39,382 bases of DNA from a virus. Location: positions 1 through 39,382 of IMG/VR virus record IMGVR_UViG_3300020473_002132; one strand, 5' to 3'. Under the pieces are notes generated by a model. The model was not told where the DNA came from. It did not search any database and worked only from the letters and a program-made list of their open reading frames with translations. Within the stretch, counting starts at the first letter, position 1; every line of letters begins with the position of its first letter. The position numbers and the translations under genes were made by a program. This document shows, in pieces, positions 8,282 through 31,425 of this stretch.

Positions 8282-9253
8282 TTATAATGTACTTTTTACA
8301 TAATCTAGATCTTCTTTGTACATTATTTCTGCAAGTTTTTCAAAATTTGTTTCTGGAGACCAACCAAGCATTGTTCGAGCCTTTGTGCAGTCACCTAACA
8401 GGTGTGGAACTTCATGGGGCCTAAATAGCCTTGTGTCTGATTCAACATGTTCGTCTATAGAGAGGTTTGCAATTTCGAAAACTTTTTCTAGCCAATCCTT
8501 AACCGTGTGCGATTTACCAGTTGCAATCACATAATCATCCGGAGTGGGGTGTTGCATCATTAAGTGCATGGCCTTCACATAATCGCCGGCGTAACCCCAG
8601 TCTCTTTTAGCAGATAAATTCCCTAAATAAAGCTTGTCTTGTAATCCCAGCTTGATTCTGGCAGCAGCTAACGTTATTTTTCTAGTTACAAAAGTTTCAC
8701 CACGTCGAGGAGATTCGTGATTAAAAAGAATACCGCAACATGCAAATATGTTATAAGACTCTCTATAGTTTCTAACTAGATGATGGGCATAAACCTTTGC
8801 GCATGCATAAGGGCTAGCAGGAGAAAGTCTAGTAAGTTCGTCCTGTGGTACTTCTGGATTATCACCAAACATTTCAGAAGAGCTAGCTTGGTAAAACTTA
8901 ATGCCCGGATTAGTGTTTCTAATTGCTTCTAAGATATTAGTAACACCTGTGACAATTGTGTTTGTTGTTGATAGTGGTATATCAAAACTAACTCTTACAT
9001 GAGATTGAGCTGCCAGATTGTATATCTCATCCGGATCATATTTATTGATCAGCCTATACATCACGCCCGAATCATCAAGCTCGAAATATTCTAGAATAAA
9101 ATTTTCATGCTCAAATATATGATCAATTCTATCTGTAGCTATTAGACTGGTCCTTCTTTTTAAGCCTATAACCTTATAGCCTAGAGCCAATAAATATTCA
9201 GCCAAATATGAACCATCCTGACCTGTGACGCCAGTTATAAACGCTGTCTTCAA
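8282..9253 (-). CDS. gmd: GDP-mannose 4,6-dehydratase
   Basis: A 323-aa extended short-chain dehydrogenase. The N-terminus TGVTGQDGSYLAE holds the GxxGxxG NAD(P)-binding loop in the exact form typical of Gmd. The active site is seen as SSSEMFG (124-130) with YxxxK at 149-153, and NHESPRRGETFVTRKI is the family-specific loop. The enzyme makes GDP-4-keto-6-deoxy-mannose from GDP-mannose, the first step to GDP-L-fucose. The upstream gene is the partner Fcl, overlapped by four bases (TTGA). The start codon is TTG, since the conserved N-terminus begins there. Because a heptose-type gene set lies in the same island, an alternative substrate is GDP-heptose, as for the related dehydratases of Campylobacter and Yersinia; sequence reading alone cannot separate these. 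Confidence 0.92.
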   Translation of the reverse strand: MKTAFITGVTGQDGSYLAEYLLALGYKVIGLKRRTSLIATDRIDHIFEHENFILEYFELDDSGVMYRLINKYDPDEIYNLAAQSHVRVSFDIPLSTTNTIVTGVTNILEAIRNTNPGIKFYQASSSEMFGDNPEVPQDELTRLSPASPYACAKVYAHHLVRNYRESYNIFACCGILFNHESPRRGETFVTRKITLAAARIKLGLQDKLYLGNLSAKRDWGYAGDYVKAMHLMMQHPTPDDYVIATGKSHTVKDWLEKVFEIANLSIDEHVESDTRLFRPHEVPHLLGDCTKARTMLGWSPETNFEKLAEIMYKEDLDYVKSTL

Positions 9254-10200
9254 ACCACACCCCTAATATTAGGATATTCTTTCAAAAACCATTCTATAGT
9301 TTGAGATAAACCATCCTCTATTCTAGTAACGCTGTTTAAATTATAGCCAAGAATTTTTAGCTTTTCACTAGAAGACGGCTTCCTTAATTGACCATTGGGC
9401 TTTTCCATATCCCATACAATTTGAATTTTATAACCAAAAATATCCCTAATTAATCTGGCGACTTTATTGATAGATATCTCCTCTATTGTGTTCCCTATAT
9501 TAATAATACCCTTAATTGGATAGTCTTGCTTCAATAAAAACGCAACTATTTTTGGTATATCATTAGCAAACGTAAATTCCCGCAAAGGAGTACCGGTGCC
9601 CCATAATTTCACCTCGCTATCACCAGACAACTTTGCATCATGCATTTTTCTAATTAAAGCAGGAATTACATGCGAGTTACTTAAGTCGAAATTGTCATTT
9701 ATTCCATATAGATTATTCGGTGATACGCAAAAATAATTAAACTGCTTTTGTTTATTAATGGCTCTAGAGTGTATGTCAAGCATTCTTTTAGAATATGCAT
9801 ACGCAAAATTTGAGTTATGTGGATGACCTAAATGTATTTCTTTTTCCTCTAGCGGAAATTCCGAATTATTAGGGTATACGCAAGTAGACAAAAAAGAAAT
9901 ACACCTCTTTATCCCAAAATGAGAGGCTGCATCTAACACGTTAATGTTTATCCTGGAGTTAATAGAGAAAAAATCAATTGGATTATTTATATTTGCCTCG
10001 ATACCACCCACCTTCGCCGCAGTATGGACGACTGCATCTACATTTAATTTAGAAAAATATTCAAATGTCTTTTTTCTATCACAAAGATCTATACCCCCAG
10101 AGGTTGGGCCATCCATTATTACCCACTCTATACCAGGAATGTTACAACTCTTAAATGCTGTACCTACTAAACCAGAACCTCCCGTAACTAATACTTTCAT
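9250..10200 (-). CDS. fcl: GDP-L-fucose synthase (GDP-4-keto-6-deoxymannose epimerase/reductase)
   Basis: A 316-aa extended SDR that would complete GDP-L-fucose synthesis by 3,5-epimerisation and NADPH-dependent reduction of the Gmd product. Key parts: the GGSGLVG nucleotide loop at 7-13; STCVYP at 105-110; YxxxK at 134-138; SPNNLYGINDNFDLSNSHVI, typical of Fcl; WGTGTPLREF; and a C-terminal KPNGQLRKPSSSEKL segment that closely follows the family (usually KPDGTxRKxLD...). It overlaps the upstream NeuA-like gene by ATGA and the downstream gmd by TTGA, giving a tightly coupled neuA-fcl-gmd series. The product probably feeds the GT11 fucosyltransferase further upstream in the same transcript. Confidence 0.92.
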   Translation of the reverse strand: MKVLVTGGSGLVGTAFKSCNIPGIEWVIMDGPTSGGIDLCDRKKTFEYFSKLNVDAVVHTAAKVGGIEANINNPIDFFSINSRININVLDAASHFGIKRCISFLSTCVYPNNSEFPLEEKEIHLGHPHNSNFAYAYSKRMLDIHSRAINKQKQFNYFCVSPNNLYGINDNFDLSNSHVIPALIRKMHDAKLSGDSEVKLWGTGTPLREFTFANDIPKIVAFLLKQDYPIKGIINIGNTIEEISINKVARLIRDIFGYKIQIVWDMEKPNGQLRKPSSSEKLKILGYNLNSVTRIEDGLSQTIEWFLKEYPNIRGVV

Positions 10201-10847
10201 GACAAACTTCTTTCATAAAGAATTTCTGCAATATCAAAATCGATCTGTTCATCAATATCAATTGACTGAATGTTGTCTAATATGAATGGATAAAAAGTAT
10301 TACCTATTATGCTTTTCTTACTTATTAATAAATCTCGCGGAATAATACTCACAGCAAAATTTAAACCCAAATAACCAGGTAAATCCTGTGAACGTGGGTG
10401 AGCTTTGGGATCATAATTAATAGCCTCCCCATTATGCCACAGATATTCTTTCACCATGTGTGTTGTAGTAATAGAGTCATATTTCGAGTCTAAATTTTTC
10501 CATAGATCGCAAATGTCTCTATATGTATCTACACCAACTAGTGGATTAGTAACGTTTGTATACACCACAATATCAGTGTCAATATTTTCTGCCATATTTT
10601 TCCATACTTCATTCATCGGAACAGTGCTAGACGCGTAATAAGAGTCCCTCTTTATAGGTGTTGCTCCTAACTTAGCAGCGATTGAAAGCATATAATCACA
10701 ATCAGAATTTACGCAAATTTCATTTATCGCTTCAACTCTCTTTAATTGATTAATTTTTATTTCTAATAAAGAAGAGCCAGCGAATGGCCTAATATTTTTG
10801 TTTATTACTCTTTGTGAACCTTGCCTTACTGGAATTAATGCTTTAAT
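10197..10847 (-). CDS. NeuA-like acylneuraminate cytidylyltransferase, apparent AUU start
   Basis: Cytidylyltransferase of the NeuA/CMP-NulO synthetase type, which activates a nonulosonate sugar with CTP. From the first in-frame ATG (10691) only 164 residues are coded and the catalytic N-terminus would be missing. Upstream in the same frame the expected sequence is present: IPVRQGSQRVINKNIRPFAG, the RxGSxRxxxKN nucleotide-binding motif, then VNSD. No ATG, GTG or TTG occurs between the in-frame TAG at 10859-10857 and 10691. An ATT codon at 10847-10845 lies exactly six bases after an AGGAG (10858-10854) and gives a 216-aa protein with the normal N-terminus. It overlaps the end of the GT29-like gene. 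An alternative explanation is an assembly or sequencing error that changed ATG to ATT. Confidence 0.8.
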   Translation of the reverse strand: MKALIPVRQGSQRVINKNIRPFAGSSLLEIKINQLKRVEAINEICVNSDCDYMLSIAAKLGATPIKRDSYYASSTVPMNEVWKNMAENIDTDIVVYTNVTNPLVGVDTYRDICDLWKNLDSKYDSITTTHMVKEYLWHNGEAINYDPKAHPRSQDLPGYLGLNFAVSIIPRDLLISKKSIIGNTFYPFILDNIQSIDIDEQIDFDIAEILYERSLS

Positions 10848-11649
10848 TTGCTTCTCCTAACAACATCATCGCGGTTTCGAAACTCTCATACCTAGGATCA
10901 CGTAATACTTCTTCCATGAATGGATCAACCTTTACTCTATTGTCTTTTTTCCATATCTCATTTTTAAAATATAAAAACTGTAAATCTGGATCATGATAAT
11001 CAGGATTTCCATCCGGGGTTTGGCCATCAGGGGAATTTACCATATTCGATATAGTGTCTTTCGTCCAAAGAGAGTTTAAATAACTGTCACGATATAATGA
11101 GCGATAAAAATCAATACCAGTAATATACAGTTCTGATATTGGTAATGATACTAAATCTATTATAGCAGAAAAACCAGCATTGGGTCTCATAGTCTTTTGT
11201 CTTATCTGCATATAGGGCTCGTCTGGCATAATCCTAACGTTAGTTAAGCTAGACATACCGTTTAACGCACCGGTGAATCTATGAAAAAACCATTCAGCAC
11301 TAGGGCAGGTCGAGATTACAACCTTTACATCATTTTGCAATATGTCAACTCTTTTTTGAATATTATTAGGATGCATTTGAATTATTTGTTTATCATTCTG
11401 AATGATAACTGTGTCACCGGGTAATATGTCATTTGTTTGCTCATTGTCAGTATAAAGAAAGTCCACTCTAGAACCGTGTGATTTTCTCTTCTCTTCCGGA
11501 ACGAAAAATGACTTTACCCTAGCGACATAATCGTAGCCGTCTATTAGCTCGCCCTGTTCATAAGCTAAAGCGCTTGCAGCTGGACCAACTAACGCGACAC
11601 GGGCGCCCTTAATAAACTCAACAAAGCTGTCATTTGTAATAAACGGCAT
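10843..11649 (-). CDS. GT29 sialyltransferase-like glycosyltransferase
   Basis: A 268-aa protein with the pattern of GT29, the family of animal sialyltransferases that use CMP-sialic acid. An L-motif-like segment lies at about 14-47 (ARVALVGPAASAL...IDGYDYVARVK). An S-motif-like segment is at about 154-182, with MRPNAGFSAIIDLV and LYITGIDFY, and a later YHDPD has His219 in the position of the family's catalytic VS motif. The gene immediately downstream encodes the CMP-sugar-forming NeuA-like enzyme, overlapping by five bases, which strongly supports a CMP-nonulosonate donor. The upstream epimerase stop forms a TAATG junction. GT29-like genes are known in some marine viruses and bacteria. The exact linkage is unknown, and the identification rests on motifs. 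Confidence 0.72.
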   Translation of the reverse strand: MPFITNDSFVEFIKGARVALVGPAASALAYEQGELIDGYDYVARVKSFFVPEEKRKSHGSRVDFLYTDNEQTNDILPGDTVIIQNDKQIIQMHPNNIQKRVDILQNDVKVVISTCPSAEWFFHRFTGALNGMSSLTNVRIMPDEPYMQIRQKTMRPNAGFSAIIDLVSLPISELYITGIDFYRSLYRDSYLNSLWTKDTISNMVNSPDGQTPDGNPDYHDPDLQFLYFKNEIWKKDNRVKVDPFMEEVLRDPRYESFETAMMLLGEAN

Positions 11650-12545
11650 TATTTAACTGCCTCATAAAATCTTTTTATTCCTTCCCGTAAAGAAACTTTT
11701 GGTTTCCAGCCAGTTGATTTTAGCTTAGAGCAATTTGCATAATTACCATGTTGATCTCCATCGTGGCCCCCTATATTTACAACCTGGAATTCTTCTTTTG
11801 GTCTTTCATGAGTATCTAGTATAACTTCTATTAAATTCTCGACTGTGGATGGGACACCGGTGCCTACATTATAGATCTCATTATCTGTTACTGATTTTAG
11901 CGATAGCTCAAAAGCGTCAATTACATCATCTATGTATATACAATCACGATATCGATCAAAAGAACCCGTCACTTTAATTACGTCACCGCTTAAAGATTGA
12001 GCCAAATAAATTGAAGCCATTCCTTGTCTCAGATTATCTAAATCCTGAGATGGGCCGTAGGTGTTAAACAATCTAAATATTGTATAATCCAAACCGTAAT
12101 TACTAAAGACCTTTATGTACAGTTCTCCCGCTAGCTTTGATACCCCATAATTAGAAATCGGATTTAGGGGATTTGATTCTGATAAATCTTTTCCTTCACC
12201 ATAGACAGCCATAGACGAAGCATACACAATCTTTTTTACGCCGGTCCTACGACAAAAATTGCATATATTTAAAGTGCCCTTGGCATTCCAGTCAACATCA
12301 TCTTCGGGTCGTATTAAAGAAATATATCCAGACGATTGAGCAGCTAAATGAAAAACTATATCAAAATTCCCTAAACCATCCAATGCTTCATAAACAGATA
12401 TATCGGCTGAATATTTTTTAAAGGAGTCATGACATTTCTTCCAGCGTGTATCGAAATCTAGTAAAGTAACATCGTGATCCCTATTCAGTCTATTCGCTAA
12501 TGCGAACCCTATAAATCCTGCACCGCCTGTTATCAAGATCTTCAT
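11649..12545 (-). CDS. NAD-dependent sugar-nucleotide epimerase/dehydratase
   Basis: A 298-aa extended SDR with ITGGAGFIG at 5-13 (NAD-binding loop), HLAAQ at 66-70, a serine pair near 110 and YxxxK at 133-137 (YGVSK), and the FNTYGP-type substrate loop. This pattern fits UDP-glucose 4-epimerase and related nucleotide-sugar epimerases (GalE, WbpP-like, or heptose epimerases); substrate cannot be settled. A GGGGTGAG element precedes the ATG. A 53-bp gap separates it from the SIS-HAD gene, one of the few spacers in the glycan island. It is coupled to the GT29-like gene by a TAATG junction, so it may prepare the acceptor sugar donor used just before sialylation. Confidence 0.85.
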   Translation of the reverse strand: MKILITGGAGFIGFALANRLNRDHDVTLLDFDTRWKKCHDSFKKYSADISVYEALDGLGNFDIVFHLAAQSSGYISLIRPEDDVDWNAKGTLNICNFCRRTGVKKIVYASSMAVYGEGKDLSESNPLNPISNYGVSKLAGELYIKVFSNYGLDYTIFRLFNTYGPSQDLDNLRQGMASIYLAQSLSGDVIKVTGSFDRYRDCIYIDDVIDAFELSLKSVTDNEIYNVGTGVPSTVENLIEVILDTHERPKEEFQVVNIGGHDGDQHGNYANCSKLKSTGWKPKVSLREGIKRFYEAVK

Positions 12546-12598
12546 AACTCACCCCTATATCCAACCATAACCATATTTAGAATCACACAAAAATTCAT
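12546..12598 (-). promoter_or_regulatory. Short intergenic gap with a possible late-promoter-like element
   Basis: On the minus strand this 53-bp AT-rich gap contains TCTAAATA at 12581-12574, one mismatch from the T4-type late -10 sequence TATAAATA, about 28 bases before the epimerase start. Because a gp55-like sigma is encoded in the window, this could be a weak late promoter that re-initiates transcription inside the glycan island. A single 8-mer in AT-rich DNA is weak evidence. Confidence 0.25.
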
Positions 12599-13576
12599 TT
12601 AAATTATGTTAAGTCCCTCTAGATTGCTCAAACATTGTTCCCATCCGCCAAACCTAATTCCCTTATCGTCTATATAGACAACTGCCCTAGGTTTTTCGGC
12701 AGTAACCTTGGTAATAAACTGATCCATGTCGTGCTTCTTTAACCAAGCCCATACTAATTCTATGCCGGTTTTGCCATTAACCAAACCTCTATCAGGCTTT
12801 GCTTTACATGTAAATAAAACTACGTTGTATTTTTGTGATAATATCTTAAGGGCATTCCGAGAGCCCTCTATAGGATCATCATAAATTGTGCCATCATAAA
12901 ACCCCATAGAGTTCTTATGAATAACCCCATCAAAATCAATGGCCAAATTAATCGTCTCATCAGGAAATGAATGCTTCCTAATTTTAGTACCTTTCCAATT
13001 CGGTTTTTCCAAATCCTCCGGCTTGTTTTTTCCTATCGACGGGCAGTTTCTACCAGATCCATGAGTTAATTGATATTGTAGTAATAGCGTTAATACTTCA
13101 CATGTATGATAATACTCTGTGTTTAAAGTAATGACGGTAAGCCCGGGTACTTTGACATTAATAGGTCGGCCTGTAACTAATACTGTCTGCATATTATTAT
13201 CAGAAGCCCACTGTAGGGCTTTCAATACATCAGTAGAGAGACCCGACGATGATATACCATATACCAATGATTTCTTTATTTGTGATGATGTTCGGACAGT
13301 TGTACGACAAGAGAGCCAGTTTACCATCCATTGATCGAAATTCGAATCGTTTATAAATGAAGTGGCTACGACACCAGAGCTTGGACACATTGCATTTTTT
13401 TGCCCATTTGATAATCTAGTAATATCTACTGCTGTATGATCTGCTATGGCGAGATTACCGCCATGACCTAAAACATATATATCGTTACAACTATTAAATT
13501 TCTCTTGAAATTCTGCCCACTCTGGAGAGTTCACTACATCCCAAAATTTTTCTTCCAAATTCTCAATATCGAACAT
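12599..13576 (-). CDS. Fusion of SIS sugar isomerase and HAD phosphatase
   Basis: A 325-aa two-domain protein. Residues about 1-180 are a SIS domain with the phosphosugar-binding loops GHGGN (37-41) and SSSG (109-112), like GmhA-type sedoheptulose-7-phosphate isomerases (which usually read GNGGS). Residues about 205-325 are a compact HAD domain: IDFDG (Asp214 nucleophile, Asp216 acid/base), the motif II Thr256, a Lys at about 295, and YIDDKGIRF with the metal-binding Asp pair 303-304. Immediately downstream of this gene in sequence, but upstream in transcription, the same two functions occur as separate genes. The fusion may channel an isomerised, phosphorylated sugar to its dephosphorylation step, as in GDP- or ADP-heptose synthesis. 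TGAGG lies before the ATG. The GHGGN change could mean a different sugar. Confidence 0.82.
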   Translation of the reverse strand: MFDIENLEEKFWDVVNSPEWAEFQEKFNSCNDIYVLGHGGNLAIADHTAVDITRLSNGQKNAMCPSSGVVATSFINDSNFDQWMVNWLSCRTTVRTSSQIKKSLVYGISSSGLSTDVLKALQWASDNNMQTVLVTGRPINVKVPGLTVITLNTEYYHTCEVLTLLLQYQLTHGSGRNCPSIGKNKPEDLEKPNWKGTKIRKHSFPDETINLAIDFDGVIHKNSMGFYDGTIYDDPIEGSRNALKILSQKYNVVLFTCKAKPDRGLVNGKTGIELVWAWLKKHDMDQFITKVTAEKPRAVVYIDDKGIRFGGWEQCLSNLEGLNII

Positions 13577-13589
13577 TACTACCTCAAAT

Positions 13590-13904
13590 TTATTTTAGGC
13601 CGGTGGCCCTTTTAAAATCCTCTACGTTTATAGCTTTATCGTCTACCAACAAATCATAGTGGGGTTTTCTATTCATTATTAGTTCGTGATACTTAACTCC
13701 CCATTCCTCTAATTGGCGTAGAGTTAAATCTGTATGGTCTATACCTGATGTACATCCTCGCGCAGTAAAGAAAATTATTCTATGACCTTCATCATAAAGG
13801 CTGTTTATCTTCTTTAGCATTTCCGGAAATGGTTGGGCTTTTTCATAGCTACTATTAAAGGTCAACGTACAAATAGTACCGTCTATATCAAAACAATAAA
13901 TCAT
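13590..13904 (-). CDS. Small HAD-family phosphatase (capsule/heptose type)
   Basis: A 104-aa minimal HAD phosphatase with no cap domain. Motif I is CFDIDGTIC (Asp6, Asp8), motif II FFTARG, and motif III/IV KPHYDLLVDDKAIN. Proteins of this size with FDIDGTIC and FTARG occur in capsule and LPS gene clusters, often beside SIS isomerases and sugar kinases, and probably remove a phosphate from a sugar bisphosphate (GmhB-like role). Its start shares a base with the stop of the GmhA-like gene (TAATG), so the two are co-translated. The next gene carries another HAD domain fused to a SIS domain. Confidence 0.83.
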   Translation of the reverse strand: MIYCFDIDGTICTLTFNSSYEKAQPFPEMLKKINSLYDEGHRIIFFTARGCTSGIDHTDLTLRQLEEWGVKYHELIMNRKPHYDLLVDDKAINVEDFKRATGLK

Positions 13905-14404
13905 TAAATCACCGCATGCAAAAAAATTAAATGTGTACTCTCAACGATACCATAATCGTCAGAATCAACATGAAAATCTAATAAAGCATCATTCGAAAAA
14001 TTTTTTCTCAGCTTATTATTTTCGTCAAATCCAGTTAATATCAAAAAAGGTACTTTAGCTTGAGTACAATAACGGGCCGACTCTAAAATATTTTCAGAAT
14101 TACCAGATGAAGAAACTAATACCACTAGGCTTTCTGATGTTGCGAAATGCTCTAAAAATTTCGCATAAGCAAAATCCCTACCATAATCGTTAATATAACA
14201 TGTCAACCTAGATGGATCTGAAAAGCTCTGTGCTTTTATGCCTAATGCCTTTGTGTAATCTTGTGATATATGGGAACAAATAGAATTTGAACCGCCATTT
14301 CCTATTAGATAAATCATGTCTCTAGACTTTAGTAGTTGAGACAAATCCTGTATTTGACTTTTGGTTATTCGCTTAATAGCTTGAGCCAAAATGTCCAGAT
14401 CCAT
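13904..14404 (-). CDS. GmhA-like phosphoheptose isomerase (SIS domain)
   Basis: A 166-aa SIS-domain protein. GNGGSN at 35-40 and SSSGNSEN at 98-105 bind the phosphosugar, and the end YGIVESTHLIFLHAV matches the C-terminal helix that carries catalytic Glu/His in GmhA. The expected reaction is sedoheptulose 7-phosphate to D-glycero-D-manno-heptose 7-phosphate. It is slightly shorter than E. coli GmhA (192 aa). The ATG at 14404 lies ten bases after AAGG; a GTG two codons earlier is equally possible. A kinase of the matching pathway lies just upstream and a phosphatase just downstream, in the order of the pathway genes. Confidence 0.85.
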   Translation of the reverse strand: MDLDILAQAIKRITKSQIQDLSQLLKSRDMIYLIGNGGSNSICSHISQDYTKALGIKAQSFSDPSRLTCYINDYGRDFAYAKFLEHFATSESLVVLVSSSGNSENILESARYCTQAKVPFLILTGFDENNKLRKNFSNDALLDFHVDSDDYGIVESTHLIFLHAVI

Positions 14405-14416
14405 TATCACATTACC

Positions 14417-15376
14417 TTAATATATTAAACTTTTAATACCATTATAGTCAATATTGATAGGAATTACAGTTGTGGAAAAATCTAACTCTATCTTGGATTG
14501 AGATGTATTATTTTCAGTAAATAAAAGAAAGTACCCACCATTTCCTGCGCCTACTAGGCGATGAGCTAGCACATAACTGGTGCTTTCTATTTTATTATCT
14601 AAAGTAGCTAGATATTGATTCCCTAGTATTGTTGAGGATATATTTTTTTTTATAGACCAGCCCTCTTTTATTATGTCAAAAAATAACCCTCTATCATTAT
14701 CATCTATAGCATGCTTCATAGAGTCTGCGTGGGATAACAGCCGCTTATCGATAGAGTCCTTTATTTTGTTTAGAACTATAGTCGAAGATCTTTTAAACCC
14801 AGATGGTAATAGGTACATCTTAAATGTATTAAAAAGCCTGGAGTCTAAATTTGTGGTCTCTACTTTTTTACCTTTTTTTAATTCATGAAAATTTAGGCCG
14901 CCGGTAGCTACGCCCCAGGGATCTTGAAATCCAGTAAGGGGGTTTATCCTTTTTTCTAATGACCAAGACCGCTCTATAATTTCATTTTTGGTTAGCCCCA
15001 AATTGTCTAATTCGTTTATTGCAGATACTAAAGCGACCATATACGACGAAGATGAAGCCAATCCAGATCCAGATGAAGATACATCTGCTGTGAACCAACA
15101 TTGTAGCGGATCTTTCGTCATTGTACTAATTGCAACACGAGCAATATCATTATTAATTTTATCTGAATCTATTACACTTTCTTTTTGGCTCCAGACTATA
15201 TTATACCTTTTATCGATCGCATTTTGACCGAAGCGATCACGAAACAAAGTGATATACGTATAAAGATTAACTGAAAATGATACTACCGCTCCTCGGCCGT
15301 GGACATCAATAAACGATGATAAATCAGTTGAGCCGCCGGCGATTGATATTCTTAAAGGACATTTAGAAATAATCAA
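14417..15376 (-). CDS. HddA-like D-glycero-D-manno-heptose 7-phosphate kinase (GHMP family)
   Basis: A 319-aa GHMP kinase. The N-terminus CPLRISIAGGSTDL is the classic start of HddA-type sugar kinases. SSGSGLASSSS at 101-111 is the phosphate-binding loop, and VGAGNGGYFLLF near residue 288 is motif 3. The likely reaction is ATP-dependent 1-phosphorylation of heptose 7-phosphate, the step after GmhA. The start codon is TTG at 15376, chosen because the family's conserved N-terminus starts there and the upstream GT4 stops two bases before it. No guanylyltransferase (HddC) is present in the window, so the last step must be encoded elsewhere or by the host. Confidence 0.87.
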   Translation of the reverse strand: MIISKCPLRISIAGGSTDLSSFIDVHGRGAVVSFSVNLYTYITLFRDRFGQNAIDKRYNIVWSQKESVIDSDKINNDIARVAISTMTKDPLQCWFTADVSSSGSGLASSSSYMVALVSAINELDNLGLTKNEIIERSWSLEKRINPLTGFQDPWGVATGGLNFHELKKGKKVETTNLDSRLFNTFKMYLLPSGFKRSSTIVLNKIKDSIDKRLLSHADSMKHAIDDNDRGLFFDIIKEGWSIKKNISSTILGNQYLATLDNKIESTSYVLAHRLVGAGNGGYFLLFTENNTSQSKIELDFSTTVIPINIDYNGIKSLIY

Positions 15377-15377
15377 A

Positions 15378-16322
15378 CTAACTATTACCTGTGATTATTG
15401 ACTCTATTTTTTCGATATAAAGTTTTGTACAACTAGGCATACCAAAATGTGTTAGCCCATATTCTCTAATTTGTTTTCGCATAGTTATTGAGCGCGCTCT
15501 ATTCTCTTTTATAATATTGACTAATATATCTGGAGAACAGTCGGTTTTTACGACGTCTATAAATGGTAGCCCTATGTCCAGGTTTGCTGCGGCTTCTTCA
15601 GACAAAACTAATCCACAACCAGCTATTAAAGCTTCTGGAACAACCTGGGGGGCTGCCTCTCCATCGCTAAATAGAACCAAATTAGCATATTTAGTTAGGC
15701 CATTATGCACTTGATCTCTAGTCCATGTACCTAGATGATTTTTAGAAGTGCTAAATCGACTATCAGCCAATGGACCGGCAAAATCTATATTATCACTAAT
15801 ACTTTGTAGAAAAAACTGAAATTTTCTTGGCTCTATTTTCCCTAAGCATATTGTTCTATCTGGGTAGGTTGGTGTCTCATCAAACTTAAATTCATCCGGA
15901 GGTATACCGTAAATCCAATCCCAGACCAATTCAGGATGGGCGCCAAAATCTCTAAAATGATAACTGTTTCTATCTGAAAGACTAAAGATATAAGAATGGT
16001 TTTGAGCAAACTTATGAAAAATCCATTCATATCCAGCGCGCTTAGAGGGATAATCCAAATATGGGTAATGACTAGTCATTGCGCCGGGAGCCGAAATATA
16101 GGGCATGATGTCAGCATATTCGTCGTAATGAAGATGCACAAAGTCAGGACGCCAGGCGTTTGTATCGTTAATAGCTTTTCTAAGATCTTTAGTGTTGACT
16201 ATTAGTACTTCATGACCATGATTCTCTAATTCGCATTTTAGATTCCACATTAGTATCTCACAACCTCCCCAGCCAGATGGGGGTATCGGTAAAATCCCGG
16301 GACCTATTAAGCAAATCTTCAT
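15378..16322 (-). CDS. GT4-like glycosyltransferase, paralog 2
   Basis: A 314-aa GT-B glycosyltransferase. It begins MKICLIGPGILPIPPSGWGG, giving a first strand and a Gly-rich loop for the acceptor domain. The C-terminal donor domain includes CLGKIEPRKFQFFLQ and a region around ANLVLFSDGEAAPQVVPEAL with the EA-type signature near residues 220-235. It aligns along its length with the neighbour at 16327-17280 (same N-terminus, same SDGEA motif), so the two arose by tandem duplication. Both are shorter than typical GT4 enzymes (350-400 aa). Substrates are unknown. It is separated from its paralog by four bases. Confidence 0.82.
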   Translation of the reverse strand: MKICLIGPGILPIPPSGWGGCEILMWNLKCELENHGHEVLIVNTKDLRKAINDTNAWRPDFVHLHYDEYADIMPYISAPGAMTSHYPYLDYPSKRAGYEWIFHKFAQNHSYIFSLSDRNSYHFRDFGAHPELVWDWIYGIPPDEFKFDETPTYPDRTICLGKIEPRKFQFFLQSISDNIDFAGPLADSRFSTSKNHLGTWTRDQVHNGLTKYANLVLFSDGEAAPQVVPEALIAGCGLVLSEEAAANLDIGLPFIDVVKTDCSPDILVNIIKENRARSITMRKQIREYGLTHFGMPSCTKLYIEKIESIITGNS

Positions 16323-16326
16323 AATG

Positions 16327-17280
16327 TTATTTTTTACCCAACACGCTTTCTACAGCTGGTAGATAATAATTTTCTACAGTCTGTAGCCACGAAAATGTTT
16401 GGCTATATTCTTTTATTTCATCCCTCATAGCAATCGATATTTTTCTGTTTGTATCGATTACACCTGCAATAAACTCAATATCATCCAATCTGTCATTTGG
16501 AATAACATCTATAAAAGGTAAGCTTAGGTCTAGATTTGAAGTTGCACATTCGGATATCACTAAACCCAAGCCAGCTGACAAGGCTTCCATACACACTAGA
16601 GGATGTGCTTCGCCATCGCTAAGTAAGACCAGGTTGGCCCATTGAGTCAAGTCTTTATACAGCTCTTTTTTAGAAATCTCCCCCAAATAACGAGGGTGCC
16701 AATCTGGAAATCTAGAATCAGAAATCCCACCATAATACCATAAGTTCTCTATATGGCGATATTTGTACTGGCCTTTTCTTTCATCAATTTTGGCTAAATA
16801 AATACTGTCATTAGGCCGTGGACACTCTTTAGTAAAACTAAACAAGTCATTACGAACGCCATTTCTAGTAACGAATATTCTATCATCAGAAACACATGCG
16901 TCACGATATGTATCAGCGATACCCTTAGATAAACAGAATACGTTTACATTAGAGATGCATGTTTTGATAAAGAAGTTCTTATAATCACGATTCCACTTTG
17001 TTTTATTTTCAAGATACGCATAATGACTAGTTATCGCAATATTTTCGCACATAAGATCTTTGGCTAAATCAATATAGTCGTCATACTGTATATGGACAAA
17101 ATCAGGTGATAGATTATTGATGATGAAAGCTGCTAAATTCATATCTTTAGTGTTCACAATATGGACATCATGCCCTAGTTGCTCTAAACTATTTCTATAG
17201 TCATCTATTAATATCTCTACCGCACCCCAGCCCGTCGGTGGAATTGACATCATGCCAGGACCTACAATACAAATTTTCAT
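16327..17280 (-). CDS. GT4-like glycosyltransferase, paralog 1
   Basis: A 317-aa GT-B enzyme. The N-terminus ICIVGPGMMSIPPTGWGAVE and the donor-domain motif WANLVLLSDGEAHPLVCMEAL repeat those of the next gene, indicating a tandem duplication followed by wide divergence. The donor domain also has YLAKIDERKGQYKY, where the EP(x)RK strand-loop of GT4 lies. The start overlaps the GT6 stop by one base (TAATG). Two related enzymes side by side often add successive identical or similar sugars; that is inference only. Confidence 0.83.
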   Translation of the reverse strand: MKICIVGPGMMSIPPTGWGAVEILIDDYRNSLEQLGHDVHIVNTKDMNLAAFIINNLSPDFVHIQYDDYIDLAKDLMCENIAITSHYAYLENKTKWNRDYKNFFIKTCISNVNVFCLSKGIADTYRDACVSDDRIFVTRNGVRNDLFSFTKECPRPNDSIYLAKIDERKGQYKYRHIENLWYYGGISDSRFPDWHPRYLGEISKKELYKDLTQWANLVLLSDGEAHPLVCMEALSAGLGLVISECATSNLDLSLPFIDVIPNDRLDDIEFIAGVIDTNRKISIAMRDEIKEYSQTFSWLQTVENYYLPAVESVLGKK

Positions 17281-18035
17281 TATTTACCTGACCCTTCGAA
17301 TCTAGGAAACTCATTGGGATCCTTATTTAAGTGAACCATCTTAACGCTATATGTATTCCAGACAAAATCATATCCCGGAGCTTCAGGTGTGGCATATCCC
17401 GAATTTAGCGTTTTCACATTATTTAAATTTTTCAAAAAATATTTGTTCATATGTGATTCATCATGCCATTTTGCGATAATATTATTTCTTGTGTCTATAT
17501 CAACATTTTTTTCACAAATTGACACCATTTCCAATATAGCTTCAGTGGTGCCACCCCAAAAACATCCTTGGCGATATACGGATAAATCATAAAAGCCAGA
17601 ATATGCGAATGCTGTTGAATCTTTATTGTCCTCGAATGTTCCAGGTTTGTCGAGAAATCCAGGATGTTGTACTGCAATCAACTCGTGATCTTCTTTTTCG
17701 TTAAAGAAGTCAAAAAAACTAATCTCGTCAACTGGCCAAAGATCAGCATCGATAAAAAAAACATGAGAATGATTTAATAGTTTATCTGATATTGAGTTCA
17801 TAAACTTGAATCTATGTAATGTTATAAACGGCCAACCAACGTGCTCAATTTCAATTGTATCTATGATTTTATGATCCAAGCTGGGGTGATTTATTTGATC
17901 AGTAAATGCATATATCGTCTTCTTGTCCCCGGGGCAGAAAAAGCGTTCCACTCTATTGCGGAAGCCCTCTAAGAACCCTATATATGGGCCAGTGCCTATA
18001 AAAATTATACCGATATTATTCAAATCAAACCCCAT
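17280..18035 (-). CDS. GT6 (ABO-family) alpha-1,3-Gal/GalNAc-transferase-like enzyme
   Basis: A 251-aa protein with the full motif set of glycosyltransferase family 6, whose founders are the human ABO transferases and alpha-1,3-galactosyltransferase. Seen: PFITLHRFKF (69-78); FIDADLWP with the DXD metal site as DAD (96-98); AVQHPGF (121-127); RQGCFWGG (155-162); and WHDESHMNKY (190-199) with the catalytic-type Glu193. Many bacterial GT6 enzymes have NXN instead of DXD, so this one keeps the vertebrate-like, metal-dependent form. The family catalyses alpha-1,3 transfer of Gal or GalNAc from UDP donors. The ATG at 18035 overlaps the end of the GT11 gene by 16 bases; a GTG 24 bases earlier is possible. 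There is no signal or membrane segment, so it is cytoplasmic. Confidence 0.85.
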   Translation of the reverse strand: MGFDLNNIGIIFIGTGPYIGFLEGFRNRVERFFCPGDKKTIYAFTDQINHPSLDHKIIDTIEIEHVGWPFITLHRFKFMNSISDKLLNHSHVFFIDADLWPVDEISFFDFFNEKEDHELIAVQHPGFLDKPGTFEDNKDSTAFAYSGFYDLSVYRQGCFWGGTTEAILEMVSICEKNVDIDTRNNIIAKWHDESHMNKYFLKNLNNVKTLNSGYATPEAPGYDFVWNTYSVKMVHLNKDPNEFPRFEGSGK

Positions 18036-18802
18036 CCGTGAATATAGATTGTGTCCCACCTTTGAGGACCCTCAGGTCCAAACCAGGCCTTAGGAGCTAC
18101 TACACCTTGATAGTTCCCCAATGCTGCTGCCCACCAGGAAAAAGAAGAATTTGATATGATATGCGCTGAGCAATTGGACATCATACACATATCAACCTCC
18201 GGAGTATTACCTTCGATAAGTGTCGATATATCATCAACTAAGTTGTCTTTAATCCAATCATGATCATCTCCGAATAAAAGAAATTTCGCTTTATTGTTTG
18301 TTGCGCTCAAAATCATTTGCTTTGCCGCTGTATAGTATTCAATGGAACATGGCGGGTGGTAATTACTCTTAGTTAGGTAATCACCTCTCCTTACGTGTAT
18401 AGAGCATGTGGGCCGATCATCAAAGTGTTCCTTTAATCGAGTTATGGCGGTGGATCTTATCTCATCTTTAAATGTAAATTTCTCTTTTATTATTTCGAAA
18501 TAATTCCCAAAATATATTGGCGACTGAAAGTAGCCAAACATGTCAGTGTTATCGTCTACCAAAAATGCATTGGCGTTAAAATGAAAATTTGGCTCTGAAT
18601 ATCTGTACTTTAAATCGCTTAATAAATTTACGTCTAAAATGTCTACGTTGGGCATTTTAAAAACTTTCCATAAATCGACATTGTCATCTTTTTGTAGCGC
18701 GTGCTTAAACCCACGTGTGAAAGCGATAGATGCCAAAGCAGCGTATTGAAACATCTGATTGCCTAATCTTCCATTTTGCCCTATCTGTAAACTGGTCAAC
18801 AT
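18020..18802 (-). CDS. GT11 alpha-1,2-fucosyltransferase
   Basis: A 260-aa protein of glycosyltransferase family 11 (FUT1/FUT2 and bacterial WbnK/FucT2 relatives). The three family motifs are all visible: GRLGNQMFQYA near residue 11, SIHVRRGDY near 140 (GDP-fucose binding), and SNSSFSWWAA near 218. The enzyme would move L-fucose from GDP-L-fucose onto the 2-position of a galactose-type acceptor. The donor can be made by the gmd and fcl genes of the same island. It overlaps the upstream GT2 by seven bases and the downstream GT6 by 16 bases. In ABO-type antigen synthesis GT6 acts on the product of GT11, so this gene order is suggestive. No membrane segment is seen. Confidence 0.9.
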   Translation of the reverse strand: MLTSLQIGQNGRLGNQMFQYAALASIAFTRGFKHALQKDDNVDLWKVFKMPNVDILDVNLLSDLKYRYSEPNFHFNANAFLVDDNTDMFGYFQSPIYFGNYFEIIKEKFTFKDEIRSTAITRLKEHFDDRPTCSIHVRRGDYLTKSNYHPPCSIEYYTAAKQMILSATNNKAKFLLFGDDHDWIKDNLVDDISTLIEGNTPEVDMCMMSNCSAHIISNSSFSWWAAALGNYQGVVAPKAWFGPEGPQRWDTIYIHGWGLI

Positions 18803-19497
18803 GTTCTCACAACTCCTTGATGTTGTAATAATTTAAATTGAGACTCAGATGCCAAGAGCGGATAATGAGGATCATATTTTGGATTATGGGTAGAATTGTA
18901 GTCTACCAGCACCTCACTTAAATTACAAAAATTGAACCACCTAATGCATCTTAACCACATATGGTGATCTTCTGCCACCGGATAAGAATCATCATAACCG
19001 CCAACCCTTAATAAAATCTCTCTCTTAAAAATAACAGAAGGATGAGCAATAGCATTTCTGCCGGTAAGTAGCCAAGACTTAATTGCAGCATCATTTAACG
19101 GATAACGAAATTGATCATCGATAATTTCAGCTCCGGAAACTAGTCTTATTTGAGTACCGCAAATATCGATGGTGCTTCTGCTGTTAAACACATCAATTTG
19201 TTTTTCTAATTTATTGGGGTACCAAATATCATCACCATCTTGACGCGCTATAAACGGTGATGAAGAATTGAATAGACCAGTATTTAGCGCTGGGACGATG
19301 CCCGGTGTTTCACACTTAACGATTTTTATTCTTTCATCATCAAATGACAATACTTTCTCTATGGTGTCGTCTGTACAGTTGTTATCAACAACTATAACTT
19401 CAAAATCCGTGAAGGTTTGATCAAGTACAGATTTTATAGCAGAAGAAATTGTTTCGCCGCAGTCTTTAACGGGAATCACTACGGATATTTTTGGCAT
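18796..19497 (-). CDS. GT2-family glycosyltransferase
   Basis: A 233-aa GT-A inverting glycosyltransferase. It opens with ISVVIPVKDCGETISSAIKS, then VVDNNCTDDT (donor base binding), GIVPALNTGL, and RQDGDDIW (DGDD at 87-90, the DXD metal site), and later VAEDHHMWLR (the ED acceptor/catalytic base motif). Length fits small soluble GT2 enzymes. The ATG at 19497 is chosen because GGAGAG lies 8 bases before it and the preceding gene ends at 19500. It probably starts the sugar on which GT11 then acts, since the two genes overlap; substrates are not readable. Confidence 0.88.
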   Translation of the reverse strand: MPKISVVIPVKDCGETISSAIKSVLDQTFTDFEVIVVDNNCTDDTIEKVLSFDDERIKIVKCETPGIVPALNTGLFNSSSPFIARQDGDDIWYPNKLEKQIDVFNSRSTIDICGTQIRLVSGAEIIDDQFRYPLNDAAIKSWLLTGRNAIAHPSVIFKREILLRVGGYDDSYPVAEDHHMWLRCIRWFNFCNLSEVLVDYNSTHNPKYDPHYPLLASESQFKLLQHQGVVRTC

Positions 19498-19499
19498 TA

Positions 19500-21392
19500 T
19501 TAGCTCTCCAAAAATTCTTTGCAATCATGATTAATCGTAATATGGGGAGTCTTTGCATTCCAATCAATCTTATTATGGAATATCCAGCCACCCATTTCAG
19601 TAGCTAATCTATTCGCTAAATCCTTTATCTCATCATTGGTAACATCGGACCACTTCTTATCAAAGAACATATTGTTTTCAGGGGTGTCTTCCTGGGGAGT
19701 ATTATATTGTGATTGCCAAAATTTTGACCAATAATTCTTGTATAAATTAATCTTACGCTCTAAGTCGAACCACGACATATGATAAACAGTCGGTATATTT
19801 TGCGCAGCAAGATTTACCCATTCTTGAAACTGTTGAAGGCTTTCTTGATTTCCTAATAAAGCATTCCTTCTATGTTGTTCGACCTCCTCAGAATATGCTG
19901 CTACGAACTTTATCCTCTTGAAGTTCTCAGTGTGAATATAGTCGCATGTGTCACTGCCAGGCGCAGTATATAGGTTTCCATCCTCATCTTCCCTACGAAG
20001 CTCTAGAGGGATTCCGTGAGTTATGTGGGGTAGGTTTTTTGATATCCTCCACTTCCATGGATTAACATCCACACGAACCTTGTCATATCCGCCCCAGAAT
20101 TCTACAACTGGTAGTGCTACTAAGTCAGAGAGTTTTGGAAAACCTTTTGCCAGAGTTTTGATTTTTTCGTAATCTTTTGGTAAAACGAACTCATCGCTAT
20201 CCATTTGCCAACAAAATTCAGAAGTGCACTTTGATCGAGCCAAAGCTTTCTGCATGCCATCTGAATGATATGCGAAACGTGGATGATCCCAGTCGATTAT
20301 GTTTTGGTTAATTACTAAGCGCGGTTCTTCTTCAGCCATTTGAGTTAGCTTATCCCATGTACCATCAGTTGATCCACCGTCGACAACCACAACTTCATCG
20401 CAAAAACCCAACATCGACTCGATGCACTTTTCCCATGGATATTGATTTTCGATGCAATTATAAACAGTCGTATATCCAGAGATAGTGGGGGACCAATTCA
20501 TCTTAGATATAACCCCATTCCAGAATCTTTCACGTGCTGCAAAAAGATATGCGCTTGTGTCGAAGTCATCTTCGGTCTCAAACCAAATTTCATTTTTGTG
20601 CTGGACGTGTTCATTTAACTTAAGTTCGCAACCTAGCATCTTCGCTTCAATTACTAGTCTAGGGCATGTATCACCTCCGCGAGGTAAATAAACAAGACCT
20701 TGCGCTGAAGATAATTTTTCTAAAACTTCCTCATGAGTAAGGCCTGAAATTAATTCAAAATCAAGATTATTTTCCTCGCAATACTTTACAGCATCCTCTG
20801 TGCCCTTAATCCAGCTATTAGATTCTAGAACCAACCACCCAGATCGATCTTTTTCTTCTTTATTCAGCTCAGCAATCTTTATAAAAAACTTGTCATCGAA
20901 AACAGAGCTTAATACCACAGATTCAATTTCAGACAAAAATGGAAATCTGTCGATGTACCTTTGTTCCTGAGCCTCTGACATCCACCATACGTTTTTTGCA
21001 CCCAAAAAGAAAGCAGACATCATCTTACCATGAATTTGATCGTGACAGTCGCAGACTGTACCTTCAATATGTTGATGCTTTTCTACTGAGCGGTACTTAC
21101 AAAATTTATAGTCGTACTCTATAATCGAATAATCTAGATTTGTAGCAGCAGTAGGAATTAAATTTAAATCCATTCCGGAAAAATTTGTAAAGATCCAATA
21201 GCAGTCGTTGTATTTCTGCATCAACTCCATTGTCACATTACGTGAATAAACAGCTGCTATATCGATATTTTCTGGAGCACTGTCTATTAAAGCCTGAGTG
21301 GTTAATTCAGCTCCGCCCGGAATATCTTTTGCATAAAAATCTGCAACAAATATAATATCAGGCTTTTTTTCTTCAAAGGGGGTTTCGAACAT
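19500..21392 (-). CDS. Two-domain glycosyltransferase: GT-B-like half fused to GT2
   Basis: A 630-aa bifunctional enzyme and the first gene of the glycan island. Residues about 10-295 look like a GT-B (GT4-like) domain: DIIFVADFYAKDIPGGAEL at the start and LPRGGDTCPRLVIEAKMLGC as the donor-binding EA motif at about 237-255. Residues about 305-560 are a GT2 domain: TTVYNCIENQYPWEKCIESM, then VVVDGGSTDGTWD (about 335-347) and WQMDSDEFV with a DSD metal site at 398-400. The C-terminal 70 residues are helical and Trp-rich with no recognised motif. AAAGAGAG precedes the ATG; a GTG two codons earlier is less well placed. Two active sites in one chain suggest that two successive sugars are added, possibly on the protein fibres encoded just upstream. 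Confidence 0.85.
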   Translation of the reverse strand: MFETPFEEKKPDIIFVADFYAKDIPGGAELTTQALIDSAPENIDIAAVYSRNVTMELMQKYNDCYWIFTNFSGMDLNLIPTAATNLDYSIIEYDYKFCKYRSVEKHQHIEGTVCDCHDQIHGKMMSAFFLGAKNVWWMSEAQEQRYIDRFPFLSEIESVVLSSVFDDKFFIKIAELNKEEKDRSGWLVLESNSWIKGTEDAVKYCEENNLDFELISGLTHEEVLEKLSSAQGLVYLPRGGDTCPRLVIEAKMLGCELKLNEHVQHKNEIWFETEDDFDTSAYLFAARERFWNGVISKMNWSPTISGYTTVYNCIENQYPWEKCIESMLGFCDEVVVVDGGSTDGTWDKLTQMAEEEPRLVINQNIIDWDHPRFAYHSDGMQKALARSKCTSEFCWQMDSDEFVLPKDYEKIKTLAKGFPKLSDLVALPVVEFWGGYDKVRVDVNPWKWRISKNLPHITHGIPLELRREDEDGNLYTAPGSDTCDYIHTENFKRIKFVAAYSEEVEQHRRNALLGNQESLQQFQEWVNLAAQNIPTVYHMSWFDLERKINLYKNYWSKFWQSQYNTPQEDTPENNMFFDKKWSDVTNDEIKDLANRLATEMGGWIFHNKIDWNAKTPHITINHDCKEFLES

Positions 21393-21398
21393 ATTCAC

Positions 21399-21833: not shown

Positions 21834-24521
21834 CTATGTTGTTAACCTAGTTATAGTCACTAGTGTTTTATAATGATCTGTACCACCCAGGACGGTAGTA
21901 CCACCGTATGACGCTCCCCTAATCTTAAGCGTATCATTCGCATCCAGCGCCAGTATATGAACGAATGAATAATCACCGATACCCGGGTTCGAAGCACTAT
22001 CTTCAATATCAGGCTTTGTAAAGTACCACTGTTGAATCGCGCCGTCGTTGTTCCTGTACATTACAAATGTGATCCCCGTCACGTCGCCGTCTGGGTCACA
22101 TTTAAGCTTCAACGTAACTAAATATTTCCCAGTGGATGGTGCGGTAAACGTATGATTTGTCGTGTTGAAATCTCCCCCCGTATCCCAATGTTCCCAAGCG
22201 AATTCAATATCTGCGGCTGTTTCAGTTAAGCTCTGGTTTCCAGAGAGACTAACACTACACGTTCCCTCTTGCATTACAAACTGTCTAGCGCTAACTACCC
22301 CTTGCTCTCCACCAACATAAAGATACCCATCAGATCTAAAGTAGCCGAATTGACTCCCCCCAGCATCACGGCGAAAATATATATTGTTTCCTCCGGTGCT
22401 GTTATTAGTCTCTGCCCAATCTAGATCAAGATATATGTTGCCATGGGCACTAACACCATTCGCTCTCAGATTTATATTATCGGAGTAAACTACTCCATCT
22501 AAATCTAGATCATCGCCGACAGTGAGTGGCCCGCTACCGAGACCATACAATTTACCGCCGAATGAAGCCGACAGATCATCGCTAAGCACCAACGCCGTAG
22601 CATACGAGTTCATGGCAGCACCCGGGGTGCCACTAGCGTTAGCTGTTTCGAAGTGGATGTTGCCACCAGCCCCAGTACCTTTACCTCGCCCACCCTGGAG
22701 CTTAAGCTCACCGCCGGTCATATTACTTGACCCACCTCCCGTCGTACTTCCTGCAGATATTGTCAGTGGCAGTCCGTGAGCACTGGTTGCGCTATCCTGG
22801 ACTTTAATATTCGTTGTTGATGCGCCGGACGTCACGTTGAAAAATATGTTCTCGTTTTTGATAGTCAATTGTTCACAAGTAACATCACCAGCGGAGCTGA
22901 CTATAAAATTAGTATCAGCAGCCACCAAAGCACCGGCTAACGTTGTGCTAAGATCTGAAGTGCCTAGTGTCACAACAGTGGTGCCATCGGCATCTTTAAG
23001 AAGCATTGCATTGTTCATTTGAATTCTATCATGGCCTCCACCATCTTTAATTGTCAAACCAGTAATTGTCAAATCACCACCAACCGTTACATTACCAGCA
23101 GCCGCCACTGTTGAGTTAGCCGGAGTTGCATGAGGCGTAAGAGTTAAGTGCGGAACGAAAGTACCAGCAGATGCAATGTCATTACCTAGCGTCAAAACTC
23201 CACCATCTGCGGCTTTTATCTCCCACTCATCCCCAGCGCTGCTACCTCTCCCACCCTTTAATAAGATCTTTGCATCACCATTTACAGCCTGAGCGCTATA
23301 TGCTCCTCCGATATTTAGTACACCATTACCAATATCCAATGGCCCGTAGGTATATGTCTCACCATTCCCGCGGAGGTAGAGTACCTCTCTTTCTGTCCCA
23401 GAACCGTCTCCGTCGCCATATTTGAACCTTAAGAAAGCGTTTGAGGTAGAACCTTGCGCTCGTGGTAGAGCCAGAATGTTCCATTCATGTGAAAATGACC
23501 CGGCGGTATTGCTGGTGTCCGAATTGTCTGTGAACCATATATTGCTATAACCTCCGACGTCATCACAGGAGTGGATGTGTAAATGCGGGCTTGCTGTATG
23601 ACCACCGCTAGCTTGTTCCACACTCCCGTGTCTAGAAATCTGTATACCACCAGTTAAGCTACCAGTGGCTGCTCCTGCTAATTTTAGAATACCTGCTTCA
23701 TCAATGTTCACAACCTCTGTTCCCGCTGAGCCGGCTGTAAATCTAATTTTAGATGTACCATCTATATGGCTAGAATCTTTATCAATTTGAAAAGTCAGGT
23801 TTTCCCTAGACGCTAAACCTGTCTCATCATTGTTACCTTCAATTTTCACTTTTAAATCGTAAAGAAAGGTATCATCAGCTGTATTACTACCACTTCCTCC
23901 TAAAATCCTAACATATTGATTGTCCGCAAGTTTAAAACTGATTTTATAAGCATGCAAAACCTTATTATTACTTGGGGCAGATCCACCACCACCACCACTA
24001 TAAAGAGAGAATTCTGAGTGATCTATTGTCCCATTAGCTCCAGCTAAATTCGAAAAAGCTTCTGGATCTAGAGTGGTAGTCGATTTCTGCCAATGAACGT
24101 TAATAGCAGAATAAGAACCAGCTAAACTAGAAGCCTTTTGTACTTTTAGATCCATTCCCGCGCCCGATTCATCTTCCGCGTTAGCCGAAAACCCTACACC
24201 CGCGTTATAGCCGGTACCAGGAGCGCATGCCCAAAACGTAATAGTTACAATCTTATTTTGCGCTATATAGCTCTCATTATTTAATACCAAGTAACCGTTA
24301 TTTAGACTAATAGCATAAGCGTTGGTTCCAGTTGGGACATTCTCTCCAGTCGTTCCCAAAACAAACGCAGTATTGCTTCTAGCGACCATACCAATAGATC
24401 CGTCCGCGGGATTTCCTGCGCTATTTTTAAAATCAAAATTGCCGTTGATGGTAGAGCCTGTACCGCTGTTATGAATGGTGGCATCCGCGGCCTTGTTTAC
24501 TTCGCTAGTATATATTGGCAT
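21834..24521 (-). CDS. Tail-fibre-type structural protein with C1q/TNF-like C-terminal domain
   Basis: An 895-aa Gly/Ser/Asn/Asp-rich protein built from short beta-strand repeats, with phrases such as GGRG(S/K) near ILLKGGRGSSAG and LKLQGGRGKGTGAG, and LTITGLTIKDGG. The last 130 or so residues change character: QSLTETAADIEFAWEHWDTG, then HTFTAPSTGKYLVTLKLKC and a final VTITRL strand. This is the C1q/TNF-like jelly-roll found at the tip of many phage fibres, where it trimerises and binds the receptor. The ATG at 24521 follows GGAG by seven bases; longer in-frame starts overlap the previous gene and are less likely. It starts two bases after the 1542-aa fibre gene stops. The abundance of Ser/Thr/Asn makes it a candidate glycosylation target. 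Confidence 0.85.
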   Translation of the reverse strand: MPIYTSEVNKAADATIHNSGTGSTINGNFDFKNSAGNPADGSIGMVARSNTAFVLGTTGENVPTGTNAYAISLNNGYLVLNNESYIAQNKIVTITFWACAPGTGYNAGVGFSANAEDESGAGMDLKVQKASSLAGSYSAINVHWQKSTTTLDPEAFSNLAGANGTIDHSEFSLYSGGGGGSAPSNNKVLHAYKISFKLADNQYVRILGGSGSNTADDTFLYDLKVKIEGNNDETGLASRENLTFQIDKDSSHIDGTSKIRFTAGSAGTEVVNIDEAGILKLAGAATGSLTGGIQISRHGSVEQASGGHTASPHLHIHSCDDVGGYSNIWFTDNSDTSNTAGSFSHEWNILALPRAQGSTSNAFLRFKYGDGDGSGTEREVLYLRGNGETYTYGPLDIGNGVLNIGGAYSAQAVNGDAKILLKGGRGSSAGDEWEIKAADGGVLTLGNDIASAGTFVPHLTLTPHATPANSTVAAAGNVTVGGDLTITGLTIKDGGGHDRIQMNNAMLLKDADGTTVVTLGTSDLSTTLAGALVAADTNFIVSSAGDVTCEQLTIKNENIFFNVTSGASTTNIKVQDSATSAHGLPLTISAGSTTGGGSSNMTGGELKLQGGRGKGTGAGGNIHFETANASGTPGAAMNSYATALVLSDDLSASFGGKLYGLGSGPLTVGDDLDLDGVVYSDNINLRANGVSAHGNIYLDLDWAETNNSTGGNNIYFRRDAGGSQFGYFRSDGYLYVGGEQGVVSARQFVMQEGTCSVSLSGNQSLTETAADIEFAWEHWDTGGDFNTTNHTFTAPSTGKYLVTLKLKCDPDGDVTGITFVMYRNNDGAIQQWYFTKPDIEDSASNPGIGDYSFVHILALDANDTLKIRGASYGGTTVLGGTDHYKTLVTITRLTT

Positions 24522-24522
24522 T

Positions 24523-31421: not shown

Positions 31422-31425
31422 TATT

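Follow-up and report, generated by a model that had tools for sequence, protein, structure and literature searches.

Two neighbouring genes for glycosyltransferases of families GT11 and GT6, found in the sugar operon of an uncultivated phage, probably encode consecutive terminal enzymes that make a branched, fucose-based glycan tip. The DNA examined, referred to here as the window, is the whole of an IMG/VR virus record of 39,382 bases. The ABO blood groups are the most familiar setting of GT6 enzymes. In the pathway that we propose, the homologues of GDP-mannose 4,6-dehydratase (GMD) and GDP-L-fucose synthase (Fcl) encoded in the same operon would, judging by their families, convert GDP-mannose of the host to GDP-L-fucose. 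Neighbouring GT2 and GT4 enzymes would build the glycan, and GT11 would add fucose to its terminal, probably galactose-like sugar. The GT6 enzyme, which is of the DXD type and expected to be retaining, would then place an alpha-linked sugar beside the fucose, a step suggested by its family and by the one-sided association of GT6 with GT11 described below. Such a pathway would yield a branched trisaccharide tip that resembles a blood group without necessarily being a genuine A or B antigen. Comparative genomics gives good support for the coupling of the two genes and for their order, but not for the identity of the epitope.

Almost all genes in the window are on the minus strand, in the order PrkA/SpoVR/DUF444 triad, PhoH, fibre-like ORFs, sugar operon, sigma-like gene and further ORFs (Table 1). 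The PrkA, SpoVR and DUF444 (YeaH-like) genes lie in a row (34235-38641, minus strand) and represent a bacterial gene set in a phage lineage; PrkA was 66–95% identical across related contigs, and relatives of it at about 33% were found in Thermus phage phiYS40. A gap of 726 bases (31096-31821) between PhoH and the next minus-strand gene was the longest spacing computed and contained only short plus-strand ORFs. Late promoters of the T4-like type (TATAAATA) were sought upstream of the island, but the outcome was uninformative, as the window contains two matches where six are expected by chance.

Table 1. Position and basis of identification of features in the window
Feature	Position	Strand	Basis
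Fibre-like ORFs	21834-29151		Size, repeats, position
Sugar operon	4964-21398	-	
632-aa protein with C-terminal GT2 domain, first gene of sugar operon	19500..21398	-	PF00535 E 2e-7
GT2 glycosyltransferase, immediately upstream of GT11-GT6 pair	18796..19494	-	PF00535 E 7e-24
GT11 family fucosyltransferase, 260 aa	18020..18802	-	PF01531 and fold
Overlap of GT11 end and GT6 start, 16 bases	18020..18035	-	Sequence
GT6 family glycosyltransferase, DXD type, 251 aa from ATG	17280..18035	-	PF03414 and fold
GT4d, GT4-like glycosyltransferase, next gene after GT6	16327..17280	-	Weak Pfam GT4
GT4c, second GT4-like glycosyltransferase	15378..16322	-	phrog_33732 E 1e-85
GHMP kinase, nearest D-glycero-D-manno-heptose 7-phosphate kinase (HddA-like)	14417..15376	-	NF049969 77 bits, below cut-off
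SIS-domain sugar isomerase, GmhA-like	13904..14410	-	PRK00414 52 bits, below cut-off
GDP-L-fucose synthase homologue (Fcl)	9250..10200	-	NF047922, PDB
GDP-mannose 4,6-dehydratase (GMD)	8282..9253	-	TIGR01472

The island contains eight or nine glycosyltransferase-like genes, and its leading 632-aa GT2-domain protein showed 72–83% conservation in close relatives. A protein similar to sialyltransferases (GT29-like; 10843-11649, minus strand) is encoded beside a cytidylyltransferase-like gene (10197-10847, minus strand), whose orthologues in two related contigs (L002 and L003) match PF02348. The conserved N-terminus of the latter gene does not begin with an ATG, GTG or TTG start; an ATT at 10847, preceded by AGGAG, aligns with the ATG start of the L003 orthologue. 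A paralogue of the GT29-like protein in L002 (12299-13132) matched PF00777 with an E value of 3e-4, below the cut-off. Together these two genes suggest that a branch of the same glycan is made from a CMP-sugar and, with the GT4-like genes, the GT29-like gene indicates a glycan of more components than the GT11-GT6 pair would account for. The operon also includes a PD-(D/E)XK nuclease gene (7388-8266, minus strand) that is retained in the close relatives that reach that far, and a single protein combining SIS-like and HAD-like domains (12599-13576, minus strand) that is conserved in L002 and L003.

An earlier note on this DNA had placed overlapping GT11 and GT6 genes at 17280-18802, in the order in which the ABO pathway uses the two families. 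This observation holds: the genes are co-directional on the minus strand with GT11 first, at the positions in Table 1, with family-level HMM support for both proteins and predicted folds that agree. The GT11 protein matched PF01531 in Pfam (E 2e-29, 103 bits against a cut-off of 23.9) and includes the motifs HVRRGD at 136-141 (HxRRxD type), FGDD at 177-180 and NSSFSWW at 218-224. A sequence search of the PDB with this protein alone gave no matches, and a search with a profile gave only weak matches to fucosyltransferases; the assignment was settled by a fold search. Structures were predicted from an alignment of the fetched loci. The AlphaFold2 model of GT11 (pLDDT 95.9) has the GT-B type fold of fucosyltransferases, and its top matches in the PDB were all GDP-fucose fucosyltransferases, namely NodZ, POFUT1, FUT8 and plant FUT1. 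As the GT11 family includes the alpha-1,3 enzyme HhFT2 (PMC4202792), the GT11 in the window is not necessarily an alpha-1,2-fucosyltransferase.

The GT6 protein matched PF03414 in Pfam (E 9e-23, 81 bits against a cut-off of 25; E 2e-24 in a search of its own genome) and scored 174 bits against the NCBIfam GT6 subfamily model NF041524, under the curated cut-off of 250. Its AlphaFold2 model (pLDDT 93.4) has a GT-A fold like that of known GT6 structures, and the best Foldseek matches in the PDB were BoGT6a of Bacteroides ovatus followed by human GTA/GTB and bovine alpha3GalT, with E values of about 1e-19 to 1e-23. BoGT6a (4AYJ, 4CJ8) is the closest solved structure (31–32% identity, TM-score 0.81). 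In PHROGs, the pair matched two phage glycosyltransferase families, with 209.6 and 188.4 bits.

The two genes had also been described as fused by an overlap of 16 bases. They are in fact separate ORFs, and the length of the overlap depends on where GT6 begins. An ATG start at 18035, which sits within the conserved GT11 'GWG' codons, gives 16 bases, but the GT6 frame is open upstream to a GTG at 18059, and a start at the TTG at 18023 would leave an overlap of four bases, the usual type in annotated cyanophage pairs. Consecutive genes of the island generally overlap, or lie apart, by a few bases, and overlaps of 1–7 bases are frequent, so that the 16-base overlap means little by itself. The overlap was therefore rejected as a sign of special coupling.

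The pair probably sets a variable tip, either on the fibres or other virion proteins of the phage itself, which we slightly prefer, or on the host envelope. Remodelling of the envelope (O-antigen/LPS) in place of the virion, for example to block superinfection, is plausible, if somewhat short of an even chance; it concerns only the destination of the glycan and is compatible with sequential action of the two enzymes. Similar cyanophage genes have been read as serving LPS or cell-wall modification (PMC9602691), and in most of the cyanophages looked at the pair is in an auxiliary-gene region and not beside fibre genes. In the window, however, the island directly follows the fibre-like ORFs and includes no gene for an initiating phosphoglycosyltransferase. 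Neither hydropathy nor profile matches pointed to a multi-span membrane protein, a flippase, a polymerase or an oligosaccharyltransferase within the island. None of its sugar enzymes had a transmembrane hydropathy profile; one small neighbour (4644-4967) did. Neither the missing export genes nor the proximity to fibre-like ORFs is decisive, because host enzymes could be used, and together they lean weakly towards cytoplasmic glycosylation of virion proteins.

The case for sequential action draws on the distribution of the two genes. In IMG/VR, 393 GT6 relatives were found, of which the best 80 were kept. Clustering at 75% identity gave 37 viral clusters. GT11 was found immediately upstream of GT6 in 30 of the 37 and immediately downstream in two, a recurrence that puts the adjacency far beyond chance, and the viral pairing is kept down to about 35% identity. 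When GT11 genes nearby were included, 35 of the 37 GT6 clusters had one, whereas GT6 was found in the flank of only 12 of 74 viral GT11 loci (80 loci, less six that end too near a contig end to tell). These GT11 loci were not a random sample but the best 80 ranked by similarity to the paired GT11 in the window, a bias that works against the asymmetry. The asymmetry fits a GT6 that needs the product of GT11 and, as genomic evidence, suggests a functional dependence of GT6 on GT11.

Amongst phage records, 71 included GT6, nearly all of them from cyanophages, and 102 included GT11. Direct adjacency with GT11 first was found in S-CAM9, S-PRM1, Bellamy, B23, DSL-LC02, DSL-LC03, SynMITS9220M01 and S-8S56, isolated cyanophages among them, and the pair is widespread in Kyanoviridae and not unusual for a phage. 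The Kyanoviridae islands of the first five resemble that of the window in the order of the adjacent pair, often with a GT4-like gene and in some cases with GMD and Fcl. In six cyanophage-type contigs (L048, L070, L080, L091, L093 and L096), a GT4d-like domain and GT6 are joined in one ORF of about 555–568 aa, usually with GT11 close downstream. GT6 was noted in two cyanophages in 2014 (PMC3961637), and genes for GDP-fucose and an alpha-1,2-fucosyltransferase were reported in cyanophage S-SCSM1 in 2022 (PMC9602691). No paper naming GT6 and GT11 together in phages was found, though coverage of the literature was incomplete and this does not prove novelty. What is new here is the one-sided viral co-occurrence; cyanophage GT6 itself had already been reported.

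In GTDB genomes, GT11 lay no more than about 5 kb from GT6 in 45 of 82 GT6 rows, with either gene first. In one Planctomycetota MAG (L137, 4992-6623), GT6 and GT11 form a single ORF of 544 aa.

A gene neighbourhood can reflect co-inheritance and not sequential action. GT6 and GT11 might work on separate positions or separate glycans and be adjacent simply because the island moves as a unit. The abundance of glycosyltransferase-like genes in the island is consistent with this, other genes in it are frequently near neighbours too, and GT4-like genes were found in 23 of the 37 viral clusters. However, GT6 is almost never found without GT11 while GT11 often occurs without GT6, and the two have been re-paired independently in bacteria, once within one ORF, which makes separate action unlikely. 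As the pair recurs in many cyanophages and GT6 is rarely without GT11, the two enzymes probably contribute to one branched sugar tip.

In the GT6 tree, nearly all viral members fell into one group, with one Omnitrophota and one Pacearchaeota sequence beside it; the exceptions were three outlying viral sequences located amongst genome members. The sub-clade that includes the window was distinct from the cyanophage sub-clade, and the phages in it carry PrkA, SpoVR and DUF444. A search of related contigs, mostly fragments, found no member of the psbA/psbD (photosystem II reaction-centre) family. In the GT11 tree, most partners of bacterial GT6 were in a different group from the viral partners, and GT11-first viral pairing required at least nine forced changes, in a quick tree with several long branches. 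GT6 and GT11 distances between viral pairs were correlated (r = 0.87, n = 32; none of 2000 permutations was as high), a correlation to which shared phage ancestry contributes.

The core proteins of the window and those of one related phage (G005) are 89–95% identical (PrkA 95%, PhoH 91%, SpoVR 90%, YeaH 89%), while the pair is only 44% (GT11) and 49% (GT6) identical, as expected of a swapped cassette. Identities for the other sugar genes were 83% for GT2x, 70% for GT2, 54% for GT4c, 73% for GHMP and 72% for SIS. The G005 pair is nearer to that of a remoter phage (G004; GT11 52%, GT6 63%), in which the sigma-like gene is only 44% identical to that of the window. The G004 contig starts just before its GT11, and its missing PrkA and PhoH were therefore not counted as a lineage difference. 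A further contig (L193) has the same frame of GT2x, GT2, GT11, Fcl and GMD, with an unrelated ORF of 369 residues (5747-6853) in the GT6 slot. This comparison suggests that the operon, conserved elsewhere, has a variable slot made up of the pair or of its GT6 half. The pair appears to behave as a cassette swapped between phages and as such probably sets a variable glycan tip, although fast divergence in place retains some likelihood as an alternative. Fibre-like ORFs also vary strongly between the window and its relatives.

The catalytic residues expected of a GT6 enzyme are present. The DXD motif is D96-A97-D98 and was found in all aligned viral GT6 proteins except one gapped row (DAD in 90 and DGD in two, plus the window), whereas most of the GTDB genome members sampled have NXN. 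Members of GT6 with NXN are reported to be metal-independent and those with DXD metal-dependent (PMC3961637), so the window enzyme is probably metal-dependent, unlike BoGT6a, which is metal-independent and has NAN. In the WHDE catalytic motif at 190-193, whose Glu is equivalent to Glu303/Glu192, H, D and E were invariant and W nearly so in an alignment of 40 rows. The residues of BoGT6a that touch the acceptor sugar (H122, T134, W189) and the catalytic E192 align with H124, T133, W190 and E193 of the window protein. Cyanophage GT6 proteins have A or S at the position of T133 and an insert in the acceptor loop.

The donor pocket is different. Positions 266/268, which are Leu and Gly in GTA and Met and Ala in GTB, correspond to Q156/C158 in the window GT6, which has neither the A-type nor the B-type residues and differs here from the characterised GT6 enzymes that were compared. 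The surrounding motif YxQGC[FL]WGG is common to nearly all viral GT6 proteins and unlike that of GTA, GTB or BoGT6a, where the counterpart is YAGGLSGG. The phage protein also has a shorter C-terminus than BoGT6a, without clear equivalents of H239/R243. These residues and the viral signature suggest that the donor, and perhaps the acceptor, may differ from those of the ABO enzymes. A tentative reading, possible but rather unlikely, is that large phages have in common a dedicated, exchangeable GT11-GT6 cassette whose branched, fucose-based tip, placed on a phage-directed glycan, would carry a sugar other than Gal or GalNAc, the QGC[FL]WGG clade having its own donor specificity.

Literal ABO mimicry, in which GT11 would make Fuc-alpha1,2-Gal (H antigen) and GT6 would complete a genuine A or B determinant with GalNAc or Gal, is doubtful and seems quite unlikely. 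Both enzymes belong to the right families, the catalytic residues are conserved, BoGT6a is the closest solved structure, and there is a precedent, raised in the earlier note and borne out, in E. coli O86, where WbwK (GT11) and WbnI (GT6) act in sequence to make a blood-group-B-like O-antigen (PMC4202792). However, a glycine at 266 or 268 has been suggested to be needed for GalNAc transfer (PMC4692239), and as both positions are non-glycine here A-type activity of the window GT6 is unlikely. Gln/Cys also differ from the Met/Ala of the B type. The search of the literature found no biochemistry on phage members of GT11 or GT6. The 'ABO-type logic' claimed for the pair has support as a pathway topology, in the order of the genes and in the asymmetry of their co-occurrence, and lacks it as a statement about an A or B epitope.

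The same island had been said to make GDP-fucose, and it does carry a GMD gene and a probable GDP-L-fucose synthase gene. The GMD protein scored 443.9 bits, over the TIGR01472 equivalog cut-off of 415. Fcl scored 241 bits against NF047922, under the cut-off of 500, and its best PDB matches were all GDP-L-fucose synthases (221 bits). GDP-mannose would have to come from the host. That the sugar is instead a 6-deoxy-heptose, with the GmhA-like SIS, HAD and HddA-like GHMP genes of the island supplying GDP-manno-heptose to the GMD homologue, is very improbable and was rejected as the main reading, as GMD fits PDB GDP-mannose dehydratases far better than GDP-heptose dehydratase (366 against 116 bits), no guanylyltransferase was found in the island, and a related contig (G003) keeps GT11, GT6, GMD and Fcl with no SIS or GHMP match in the stretch read.

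Compared with known systems, the phage pair is like human GTA/GTB with FUT1/FUT2 in its families, DXD motif and family order, but its GT6 is only 22–23% identical to the human enzymes. The O-antigen cluster of E. coli O86 is bacterial, whereas the phage GT6 falls in a viral clade of its own that has DXD and QGC[FL]WGG. The strong, one-sided association of this viral clade with a fucosyltransferase, together with repeated re-pairing, makes 'fucose first, then GT6' a testable general rule outside vertebrates, and the viral GT6 proteins offer enzymes whose donor pocket is unstudied. If the reading of a distinct donor specificity is true, the QGC[FL]WGG cassette would be a viral counterpart of the blood-group polymorphism. 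The phage core changes much more slowly than the glycan cassette, which may therefore control host recognition or exclusion.
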